Shown: one piece after another, positions 20,501-25,077 of the stretch
Layout of the letters: every line of letters starts with the position of its first letter
Position numbering within the stretch: position 1 is the first letter of the stretch
Source of the DNA: Streptomyces spectabilis
Lineage (GTDB): Bacteria; Actinomycetota; Actinomycetes; Streptomycetales; Streptomycetaceae
Direction of reading: 5' to 3'
Assembly (NCBI RefSeq): GCF_008704795.1
Contig: NZ_CP023690.1
Span: 9,124,501-9,188,500, forward strand
Length of the DNA stretch: 64,000 nt
Translations under genes and position numbers: made by a program
Notes under the pieces: generated by a model
Told to the model about the DNA's origin: nothing
The model's input: only the letters and a program-made list of their open reading frames with translations
Database searches by the model: none

Positions 20501-23500
20501 AGTCGTACCCCGTCGACGGCGCGGGCATCACCGAGGCGACCACGGCCGCCGGGGTGGAGATCACCGGCCTGAGCCCGCTCAGCGGCACCCACTACCCGAT
20601 GATGGTCGTCGCCCTCGCCGAACCCCATCTGAAGGTGGGCATCCAGTACCAGCACCACCTCTTCGAACGCGACCGGGCCGGTGCCGTCGCCGCCGCGTAC
20701 GCGGAGGTCCTGCGCCGCCTCGCCACCGACCCCGACACCCCGGTGGGCGCGGTGGACGTCGTCGCCCGGACCCCGGACGGACAGCTCGTCCGCGCGGGCT
20801 CCCGGGCCGGAAACCGCGGTGGCCGCGGCGGACCCGGGACCGCCCCGGCCGCCCGCCCCGGCGACGGCCGGACCGCGCGGGACCCGCGCACCCCGCAGGA
20901 AGAGCTGCTGTGCGGCCTGTTCGCCGAGGTGCTCGGCCTGGACCGGGTCGGCGTCGACGACGACTTCTTCGACCTGGGCGGACACTCCCTGCTCGCCACC
21001 CGCCTGGCCGGACGGGTCCGCTCCGTCCTCGGCGTGGAGGTGCCGCTGCGCGTCCTGTTCGCCGCCCCCACGGTCGCCGAACTCGTCGAGCACCTGCCCA
21101 AGGGCGCCCGCGCCCGGCTCGCGCTGCGGCGCACCGCGCGGCGCCCCGACGCGGTTCCGCTCTCCTTCGCGCAGCGTCGGCTGTGGTTCCTCGACAAGTT
21201 CGAGGCGGACAAGACCACGTACCACGCGCCGTTCCCGCTGCGCCTGACCGGCACGGTGGACGTGCCCGCGCTCACCGCGGCCCTGCGCGACGTGGTGGTG
21301 CGCCACGAGAGCCTGCGCACCGTGTTCCCCGAGGACGCCGCGGGCGAGCCGCGCCAGCACGTCCTGGACGCCGGACCGCTCGCCGTCGACCTGCCCGTCG
21401 TCGACGTGGCGCCGCAGGACCTGGAGGAGGCGCTGGCCGCGAGGACCGCGCGCCCCTTCGACCTGGCCGCGGAGATCCCGCTCCACGCCACGCTGCTGCG
21501 CCTGGCCGAGCAGGACCACGTCCTGCTCCTGATGATCCATCACATCGCGGCCGACGGCGAGTCGTTCGCCCCGCTCGTCCGGGACCTGTCCGCCGCCTAC
21601 GCCGCCCGGCTGCGCGGCGAGCCGCCGCGCTGGCGGGAGCTGCCCGTGCAGTACGTCGACTACACCCTGTGGCAGCACGAGCTGCTGGGCTCCGAGAGCG
21701 ACCCCGACAGCCTCCTGGCCGCACAGGTCGACTACTGGAAGGAGGAGTTGACGGGCCTCCCACAGCCCCTCCAGCTGCCCGCCGACCGCCCGCGGCCCCT
21801 CGTCGCGAGCCACCGGGGAGACGTGGTGGAGTTCGCGCTCGACCCGCGCACCGCGGCCGCCGTGGAGGAACTGGCGCGCAGCCGCTCCGCCACCGCGTCC
21901 ATGGTGCTCCAGTCCGCGCTCACCGTGCTCCTGCACGCGCACGGCGCGGGCGACGACATCGCCATCGGTTCCCCCATCGCCAACCGCACCGACGACAACC
22001 TCACCGAACTCATCGGCTTCTTCGTCAACACCTGGGTCCTGCGCGCCGACGTGGCGGGCAACCCCGCCTTCCTCGACCTGCTCGACCAGGTACGCGCCAA
22101 GTCCCTCGGCGCGTACGACCACCAGGACGTGCCGTTCGAGCGCCTGGTGGACATCGTCAGCGCCGAGCGGTCCACGGCCTACGCGCCGCTGACCCAGGTG
22201 GTCCTCGCCTGGCAGAACTTCGCCCGGGAGGACTTCGCGCTGCCCGGCCTGCGGGTGGGCCTGGAGCCGCTGCGCACCGCCACCGCCAAGTTCGACCTGT
22301 TCTTCAACCTGGCGGCGCTGCCGGGCCACGGCATCGTCGGGCACCTCGAATACGCCACGGACCTCTTCGACCGCGCCACGGCCGAGCGCCTCGCCGACCG
22401 TTTCGTCCGGGTCGTGGAACAGCTCGTGGCCGACCCCGCGCAGCGCGTCGGCGCGGTGGACGTCCTGGAGGAGAGGGAGCTGCGGTGTCTGCGGGAGTGG
22501 TCCCGCGCGGGCGGCCCCGGCGCCCCGGTCCCCGACCTGACCGTGCCGCAGGTCTTCGAGGCGACGGCGGCCGCGCACCCGGACCGGCCCGCCGTCACCT
22601 CAGACGCGGTGACGGTCGACTACGCGCGGCTGAACGCGGCGGCCAACCGTCTAGCCCGGCTGCTGCGCGCGCACGGCGCACGCCCCGGCCGGACGCTGGC
22701 GGTGGCACTGCCCCGCTCCACCGACCTGGTCGTCACGATCCTCGCGATCCTGAAGACCGGCGCCGCGTACGTGCCGGTCGACCCGGGCCACCCGGCCGAC
22801 CGCGTCGCGTACACGCTCGCCGACGCCCGGCCCGAACTCGTCGTCACCGACGCCGCGTTCGCCGACCGGGTGCCGGAGGGGCCGCGCCTGCTCATCGACG
22901 CCCCCGACACCGACGCGGCCCTCGCCGCGCTGCCCGCCCACGACCTGGACGCGGCCGAGCGCGGCACCCTCGGCCCGGACGACGCCGCCTACGTCATCTA
23001 CACCTCGGGCTCCACGGGCCGCCCCAAGGGCGTCCTGGTCACGCACCGCAACGTGCTGAGCCTGATGACCCGTACACGGGACCTGTTCGGCTTCGGCGCC
23101 GACGACGTGTGGACGATGTTCCACTCGCCCGCCTTCGACTTCTCGGTGTGGGAGCTGTGGGGACCGCTGCTGCACGGCGGCCGCCTCGTGACCGTCCCGC
23201 ACGACGTCGGACGGTCGCCGGAGGACTTCCTGGCGCTGCTCGCGCGCGAGCGGGTCACGGTGCTCAACCAGACCCCGTCGGCCTTCTACCAGCTGATCCG
23301 CGCGGACCGGGAGAACCCCGGCCCGGGACGGAGCCTCGCCCTGCGCACCGTCGTGTTCGGCGGCGAGGCACTGGACCTGCCGCGTCTCACCGAGTGGTAC
23401 GAGCGGCACGCCGCCGACGCCCCGCGCCTGGTGAACATGTACGGCATCACGGAGACCACCGTGCACGTCACCCACGGCCCGCTCGACCCGGACCTGGTGC

Positions 23501-25077
23501 GCGGCGCCGCGGGCTCCGCGATCGGCGTCGGCCTGCCCGGCCTGGACGTACGGCTCCTCGACGGGGCGCTGCGGCCCGTGCCCGCCGGTGTCGTGGGCGA
23601 GATGTACGTGGGTGGTGACCAGGTGGCGCGCGGCTACCTCAACCGCCCGGACCTGACGGCGGCGCGGTTCGTCGCCGACCCGTCCGGACCGCCCGGCAGC
23701 CGCCTGTACCGCTCCGGCGACCTGGCCCGGTGGACGCCCCGGGGGCAGCTGGAGTACGCCGGGCGCTCGGACGACCAGATCAAGCTCCGCGGCTTCCGGA
23801 TCGAGCCCGGCGAGGTCGAGGCGGCGCTGCTCGCCCGCGCCGACGTGGCCGACGCACGGGTCGTCGTCCGGGTCGACTCCGCAGGGGACAAGGCCCTGAC
23901 GGCCTACGCGGTCCCGGCGGGTCCCGAGGGCCTGCCCGAGCCCGCCGTGCTCCGCGCCGAGCTGCGTGCCGTCCTGCCCGACTACATGGTCCCCGCGGCC
24001 TTCGTACCGCTCGACTCCATCCCGCTGACCGGCAACGGCAAGCTGGACCGCGCCGCCCTGCCCGCGCCCGCGCGCACTGCTTCGGGCCCCGCGGCCGCGC
24101 GGCCCACCAGCACCCTGGAGCTCCACGTCGTCCGCGCCTGGGCCCGGGTCCTGGACACGGACCCGTACGGCGTCGGCGTCGACGACGACTTCTTCGACGC
24201 CGGGGGAGACTCCTTCAAGGCGGTCACGCTGGCCCGTGCCATCGGCCAGGGACTGCCCGTGGTGGAGGTCTTCAAGAACCCCACACCACGACAACTGGCG
24301 GCGCGCCTCGCCTCGTTGGAGGCGGCGCAGGGAACGCCCGCGCTGCTGCACCGCCTCACACCCGGGCGCGACGCGGACAACGGCCCCGGGCACACCGTGG
24401 TCTGCATCCCCTACGGCGGCGGCAACGCCACCGCCTACCAGCCCCTCGCCGGGCGGCTTCCCGCCGACGTCGACCTCTGGGCCGCCGAGCTGCCGGGGCA
24501 CGATCCGGTGCGCCCCGACGAGCCCCTTGAGCCCTGGGCCGAGACCGCCGAGCGCGTGGCGAAGGAGATCGCGGAGACGGTGCGCGGGCGGTACACCCTG
24601 TACGGACACTGCGCCGGCACGTTCTTCGCCGTCCTCGTCGCCCGCCTGCTGGAGGACAGGGGAGCCGCCCCGTCGCGGATCGTCCTGGGCGCCGCCTTCC
24701 CGCAGGACGCACCGAGCGACGACCAGTTGACGGAAGCGGCGGGTGACGACGACCTCTTCGCGGGCCTGAGCGCCATCGGCGGCTTCTCCGGCGCCCTGGA
24801 CGACAGGGACCGGCGCCGCGTCCTGGCCGTCGTCCGCCACGACATGCTGGAGGGCTCGCGCTTCCACCGCGAGGCCACCGGCGGCTTCGAGCGGCTGCGC
24901 ACCCCGGTGCGCGTCGTGATCGGCGGCGCGGACCCGCTCACCGACGGCTACGCGACCGGTTACCGGGCCTGGGAGCACTACGCCCACGACGTGACGCTGG
25001 ACGTCATCGAGGACGCGGGACACTACTTCGTCAAGGACCGGGCCGAGGAGGTGGCACGGCTGGTCATCGATCAGTGA
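11599..25077 (+). CDS. Four-module nonribosomal peptide synthetase, C-A-T / C-A-T-E / C-T / C-A(Thr)-T-TE
   Basis: About 4490 residues in one frame. Domains with key residues (numbered from 11599): C1 ~10-450, HHIVADG at 141; A1 ~460-950, YTSGSTG at 613; T1, phosphopantetheine Ser 1002; C2 ~1059-1500, HHIAGDG at 1188; A2 ~1515-2020, YTSGSTG at 1671; T2, Ser 2072 in the GGDSI form that precedes epimerases; E ~2120-2580, QHLVVDG at 2259 with the catalytic second His kept, and EGHGRE; C3 ~2615-3050, HHVLFDG at 2760, after an E domain so expected to accept a D-residue; T3, Ser 3130, with no A domain between C3 and T3; C4 ~3185-3625, HHIAADG at 3314; A3 ~3640-4160, YTSGSTG at 3801; T4, Ser 4205; TE ~4262-4492, nucleophile Cys 4338 in GHCAG. 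Aligning to GrsA, specificity lines are A1 DVFTVAAYAK, A2 DVFAVGPYAK (not assigned) and A3 DFWNVGMVHK, the threonine code. C1 resembles the EntF-type starter C domain. TTG at 11620, 9 nt after GAGGGAG, is the likelier start; GTG 11599 is the longer option. No MbtH, transporter or tailoring gene is adjacent. Confidence 0.95.
12949..14241 (+). repeat. Internal NRPS duplication, copy 1 (A1)
   Basis: Covers the end of C1 and most of A1. It is co-linear and of exactly equal length (1293 bp) with 16123-17415, with long identical stretches at both ends of the A domain and lower identity in the specificity-determining middle. Confidence 0.85.
16123..17415 (+). repeat. Internal NRPS duplication, copy 2 (A2)
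   Basis: Second copy of the 1293-bp repeat. Relative to copy 1 the pocket residues change at positions 278 (T to A), 301 (A to G) and 322 (A to P), GrsA numbering. The conserved ends would support recombination or gene conversion between modules. Confidence 0.85.

Follow-up and report, generated by a model that had tools for sequence, protein, structure and literature searches.

A Streptomyces spectabilis nonribosomal peptide synthetase pairs a threonine-coded last module with an ObiF-type thioesterase and is a candidate peptidyl β-lactone producer

We analyzed a 64,000-nt stretch of the Streptomyces spectabilis genome (the window; positions 9,124,501 to 9,188,500 of NZ_CP023690.1, the single 9.8 Mb contig), in which one open reading frame (ORF) at 11599-25077 of the plus strand encodes a nonribosomal peptide synthetase (NRPS) of 4492 aa. 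The last module is predicted from its code to present a β-hydroxy amino acid, Thr, to a terminal thioesterase (TE) resembling that of ObiF1, the obafluorin enzyme, and we somewhat favor an N-acyl-piperazate-D-piperazate-Thr β-lactone as the predicted product. As judged by sequence comparison, what is new here is that the window and all five orthologues hold the Thr code and a Cys-type TE together while the inner modules vary. More tentatively, we propose a Streptomyces/Embleya family that would make N-acyl peptidyl-threonine β-lactones on plain L-Thr via an ObiF-type TE, in which the peptide varies (a piperazate-piperazate recognition element here, other residues in the relatives), the Thr-lactone warhead is kept, and the window strain also skips a module after loss of an adenylation-methyltransferase unit. 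In titles and the opening lines of abstracts from the open-access literature, we found neither this NRPS nor a Thr β-lactone NRPS described.

The TE (24316-25074) has a Cys-type nucleophile elbow, GHCAG, at aa 4336-4340 (24604-24618), as the initial annotation had read it. The domain matched PF00975 (4.5e-21), and its best sequence match in the PDB was ObiF1 (2.9e-38). The triad consists of Cys4338 (24610-24612), Asp4445 (24931-24933), and His4475 (25021-25023), with the Asp at the unusual "position II" and a small residue, Ala, at position I. Among the marks of the ObiF type are a type I TE at the C terminus with Cys as its nucleophile, and a position-II Asp with a small position-I residue and a His; the window TE carries both. 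The Cys-Asp spacing is that of ObiF1, and the PGHDP, GF, and HD motifs are common to the two. The initial annotation had likened the domain to the ObiF TE; in a structural ranking, which rests on VIA-align comparison, ObiF1 came first and the β-lactam-forming TE of SulM second. Nine other PF00975 stretches in large ORFs were fetched from the same genome; in all eight that could be aligned the Asp stands at position I, and the nucleophile is Ser in seven and Cys in one (GFCLG).

Alignment to the GrsA core (1amu), by which the A-domain codes were read, gave the third adenylation (A) domain (22516-24078) the code DFWNVGMVH, which the A10 Lys completes to DFWNVGMVHK, the same Thr code that had been reported initially; it is listed for Thr in the code table within PMC9113097. 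The nine aligned positions were identical in the window and 5/5 orthologues, all of which also have the Cys-TE. The orthologues came from a single pattern-based scan covering 84,980 species, which reaches close relatives only: Streptomyces sp. NRRL B-1347 (whose TE is the nearest among named relatives, 94%), S. aureocirculatus, E. scabrispora, S. typhae, and E. hyalina, with three of the five sequences cut or starting near contig ends (L060, L061, L062). Their inner modules differ and the A2 codes are not constant: across the four distant orthologues, identity was 82-84% in A(Thr), 49-71% in A2, and 70-74% in the TE. Identities for C1, A1, and C2 of L060-L063 were set aside, as the domains paired there may not be equivalent. 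Because the Cys-to-Ser mutant of ObiF1 (C1146S) shifted to hydrolysis, as given in part of PMC6668435, the kept Cys in the window and orthologues is informative.

The same mutant bears on the main rival to β-lactone release, hydrolysis, by which the Cys-TE would free the linear N-acyl-peptidyl-Thr acid, an outcome that we regard as unlikely though the strongest of the alternatives. It is favored by the type II TEs, editing hydrolases close in fold, being the next structural and sequence neighbors after ObiF1 and SulM, and by the many relatives with the same triad that end in codes without a β-hydroxyl. It is disfavored by a nucleophile that is Cys rather than Ser, the very exchange that turned ObiF1 hydrolytic, and by the retention of this Cys throughout the orthologues.

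Pfam recognized five condensation-type, three adenylation, four carrier, and one thioesterase stretch in the ORF, which together with motifs gave the order C1-A1-T1-C2-A2-T2-E-C3-[no A]-T3-C4-A(Thr)-T4-TE, where C is condensation, T carrier, and E epimerization; the limits given here are approximate, being set by Pfam and motif anchors, and all domains lie on the plus strand. This order fits the residue sequence aa-D-aa-(X)-Thr of the initial annotation. The best PDB matches of C1 (11626-12948) were the RzmA C domain (7c1k, 5.3e-36), a starter domain according to part of PMC7804268, and the CDA starter domain C1 (~3e-34), and this starter-type C1 suggests that the N terminus is probably acylated. 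The A1 code (12976-14478), DVFTVAAYAK, agrees at 10/10 positions with the piperazate code quoted for ArtG-A2 within PMC5031334 and recurs as the first A code of E. hyalina, and the A2 code (16156-17688), DVFAVGPYAK, agrees at 9/10 with KtzH-A1 (DVFSVGPYAK); both domains are predicted to load piperazate. T1 (14491-14718, FFDLGGHS) precedes C2 (14746-16068), with an LCL-type (L-donor, L-acceptor) entry motif, and T2 (17701-17913, FFAVGGDS) precedes the E domain (17941-19278), predicted to epimerize residue 2 from EGHGRE and a further motif, with Gln replacing the first His of HHxxxDG. C3 (19456-20793) has a DCL-type (D-donor) entry motif, T3 (20896-21102, FFDLGGHS) retains its Ser without a cognate A domain, C4 (21136-22473) is again LCL-type, and T4 (24091-24303) reads FFDAGGDS.

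The genome's sole gene of the piperazate-synthase family PF04299, at 7.896 Mb, adjoins a PF13434 ornithine-hydroxylase gene (the pair at 7895805-7897770), an assignment made at family level; an MbtH gene lies alongside, as does a gene that similarity to L157 marks as ArgJ-like, and no NRPS ORF was recognized within 40 kb around this locus (L151, 7895805-7899300). The pair was present in 6/6 NRPS genomes and 7/80 genomes of the genus (p 3.6e-6). Adjacency in controls was checked in the 15 of the 80 with the best PF04299 score, and in the worst case, all 26 unchecked positives having the pair, p rises to 0.007; the six NRPS genomes are related, forming about three lineages, and one of the seven control pairs lies 16 kb apart. 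MbtH and ArgJ neighbors were found at 5/6 loci, with E. hyalina the exception.

Module 3 of the window NRPS has lost its A domain. In four orthologues it is C-A-methyltransferase-T, with about 740 aa between A3 and A10, and methyltransferase families match the insert of L060. NRRL B-1347 has neither the methyltransferase nor the A10 end any longer, and its A core lacks the Asp of the FD motif. The remnant has a ratio of nonsynonymous to synonymous substitution rates (dN/dS) of 0.64-0.70, where A(Thr) and C3, compared between the same sequences, gave 0.27-0.39. In the window, 114 bp (20764-20877) stand in place of 1344 bp of the NRRL B-1347 remnant, as delimited by blastn to the orthologue sequences (L039, L040), and a domain search of this scar recognized nothing. 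The series of intact, decayed, and absent A domains indicates that module 3 shed its A-methyltransferase in two stages. The T3, C3, and C4 motifs are intact, and the likeliest reading of the sequences seems to be that the line still works and skips module 3.

In the mechanism that we propose, C1 would take the acyl donor and acylate the first piperazate, C2 would join the second, which the E domain would epimerize, module 3 would be bypassed or loaded in trans, and C4 would join L-Thr. The chain would then leave T4 and form a thioester with Cys4338 of the TE, and His4475, held by Asp4445, would let the Thr β-hydroxyl attack this thioester in a closed pocket, with release as the peptidyl threonine β-lactone (2-oxetanone). 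By arithmetic, the predicted N-acetyl product would be C16H25N5O5, with [M+H]+ 368.193 and +14.016 for each further acyl CH2.

Several observations weigh against this proposal. The TE survey comprised 58 aligned rows (45 of 55 non-self matches, the ten weakest being omitted, 7 more, the window, and the 5 orthologues), in which Cys was the nucleophile in 43, only 20 of these behind Thr or Ser codes. The codes were Thr in 7, Ser in 13, DMYNFGLIH in 4, DIW-type in 4, what we take to be Asp-like in 10 and Orn-like in 2, and none read in 3. Cys with a position-II Asp is also found with these Asp-like and Orn-like codes and with unassigned ones; Cys by itself is not diagnostic, and because Cys-TEs also follow codes without Thr or Ser, β-lactone formation cannot be deduced from an ObiF-like TE. 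Identity to ObiF1 is 33.7% for the window TE, and two other relatives (L073, L113) reach 38%. In the tree, from which four rows were excluded (L119, L110, own_L135, own_L136), ObiF1 falls in the same large clade as the window TE, distinct both from the type II TEs (100/99) and from other type I TEs of this genome, yet on its long branch it joins a DIWxSTADD group (91/81) in which the nucleophile is mostly Ser, not the group of the window; a clade of ObiF1 with the window group was not recovered, yet not rejected as a constraint (p-AU, approximately unbiased test, 0.338). Across orthologues the TE is less conserved than A(Thr), as the identities above show, with dN/dS <=0.49. The piperazate pair is unlinked, 1.2 Mb from the NRPS, and need not serve it, because another NRPS region of the same genome, at 7.385-7.41 Mb, has piperazate codes. 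No threonyl-tRNA synthetase (ThrRS) gene of the obafluorin kind was found linked to the NRPS. Finally, without A3 a D-donor meets the LCL-type C4, which could impair the line.

The initial annotation had moved from Cys plus Thr to a β-lactone or a depsipeptide ring. Cys and Thr are insufficient alone, given the survey, and it is the Asp position, the ObiF1 motifs and spacing, and the structural ranking that support the β-lactone. The depsipeptide ring was set aside: the chain is probably two or three residues plus Thr, the N terminus is probably acylated, and Thr is last, and the hydroxyl of the terminal Thr could therefore attack only the carbonyl of the same residue, closing a four-membered ring. 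A larger ring would need a hydroxylated acyl chain or oligomerization. Bacillibactin and griseobactin are oligolactones joined through Thr hydroxyls, and such trilactones need Thr as the last residue and a C-terminal TE, both of which are present here. Iterative joining of acyl-peptidyl-Thr units through their Thr hydroxyls is nevertheless improbable: C1 is nearer to acyl starters than to EntF, the trilactone TE of EntF has a position-I Asp (stated in part of PMC6668435) while that of the window is at position II, and the genome's only above-cut-off isochorismate synthase match, at 0.97 Mb, is not near the NRPS. A catechol siderophore was likewise rejected, there being no isochorismate synthase near the NRPS and the nearest same-contig case lying 32 kb away, in G151. 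Marginally less probable still is a macrolactone with a hydroxylated acyl chain, or closure of a piperazate hydrazine nitrogen onto Thr; C1 is acyl-starter-like and piperazate retains its second nitrogen, but the chain is very short and the pocket type of the TE is that of intraresidue four-ring closure. That the line is decaying and makes no product, as the A-methyltransferase loss and the relaxed selection on the NRRL B-1347 remnant might suggest, is the least probable of all, as the 4492 codons hold neither stop nor frameshift and the domains outside the module-3 remnant have dN/dS 0.10-0.31 between the window and NRRL B-1347, two strains with a common loss.

β-Lactone release remains our preferred reading. 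Among known systems, ObiF1/ObiF (ObaI) of Burkholderia and Pseudomonas has the same C-A-T-TE end, GHCAG elbow, Cys-Asp(position II)-His triad, lid spacing, and terminal β-hydroxy amino acid; unlike the predicted last module here, the ObiF1 A domain does not accept L-Thr. Obafluorin consists of a single residue with an aryl cap, and its system includes a fused MbtH domain and precursor genes of its own, whereas the window NRPS is multimodular and Thr-coded, its ORF lacks MbtH, and the precursor genes are unlinked. The SulM TE of the monobactam sulfazecin likewise has a Cys nucleophile, a position-II Asp, and a strained four-ring closure; SulM-type TEs are defined by a Gln-Cys-Asn motif and a 2,3-diaminopropionate code (within PMC11298585), whereas the window TE has His-Cys-Ala within GHCAG and a Thr code. 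ObiF1 and SulM, both in the PDB, were the only TE relatives with known products that we found. The type II editing TEs RifR, RedJ, and BorB resemble the window TE in position-II Asp and fold, but are stand-alone Ser hydrolases in the separate clade. The aurantimycin (ArtG) and kutzneride (KtzH) lines, which match A1 and A2 in their piperazate codes, make macrocyclic depsipeptides or peptides; for the window NRPS, the piperazate genes are distant.

Other TE relatives showed features of their own. In 5/5 scanned relatives with Ser, Asp-like, or Orn-like codes (L123, L124, L125, L126, L127), the ORF continues past the Cys-TE into a major facilitator superfamily (MFS) transporter domain (C-A-T-TE-MFS), an order that joins release domain and exporter in one protein. 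L120 (G017:C241), a monomodular C-A-T-TE with the Thr-like code DFWSVGMVH and a Cys-TE, lies beside a chorismate-using enzyme, a Streptomyces antibiotic regulatory protein (SARP) regulator, an Asn-synthase-like enzyme, and ABC/ECF transporters, and is a further candidate locus for a Thr β-lactone or a siderophore. L121 (G042:C3), a Cys-TE NRPS with the code DMYNFGLIH, adjoins an AlkZ-like DNA glycosylase, a P450, and a methyltransferase, neighbors suggestive of a DNA-alkylating product. L122 (G003:C1) is an NRPS in which a single ORF runs from C-T through a Cys-TE (GHCAG) and another TE-like domain (GHCLG) to an A domain.

No dedicated tailoring genes were recognized adjoining the NRPS. A convergent PF00144 serine hydrolase gene (25071-26294, minus strand) shares 7 bp with the end of the NRPS ORF and among the orthologues adjoins the NRPS only in NRRL B-1347; its product is S12 DD-peptidase-like, and by eye its N terminus resembles a signal peptide. 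By a crude ORF filter, which missed this gene, the available Embleya and S. typhae flanks had no ORFs in common with the window, S. aureocirculatus had one protease, and NRRL B-1347 had at least five genes; the upstream flanks of three orthologues end at contig ends, and the absence of conserved cluster genes is weak evidence. A second, short ThrRS without the N-terminal part lies at 644531-645682 of the genome, 8.5 Mb from the NRPS. This gene, unlinked and common in the genus, was not taken as evidence of ThrRS-based self-resistance; it was present in 6/6 NRPS genomes, 9/13 genus genomes without a TE match, and 2/12 whose TE relative is more distant (Fisher, relatedness ignored: 0.26 when compared with the 13, 0.02 with all 25). 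Elsewhere in the window, the minus strand encodes a penicillin-amidase family acylase (38328-40754; best NCBIfam match PvdQ, below cut-off) and a CATRA-N/CATRA-C protein (321-1829; by Pfam names, a caspase- and tetratricopeptide repeat (TPR)-associated domain family).

β-Lactones are covalent inhibitors, and few are made by NRPSs. If our reading is true, ring closure on ordinary threonine after a multimodular line would uncouple warhead formation from the rare precursor of obafluorin. The orthologue series, with the A-methyltransferase intact, its A domain decayed, or absent, makes a natural NRPS module loss directly testable and offers natural terminal modules for engineering.

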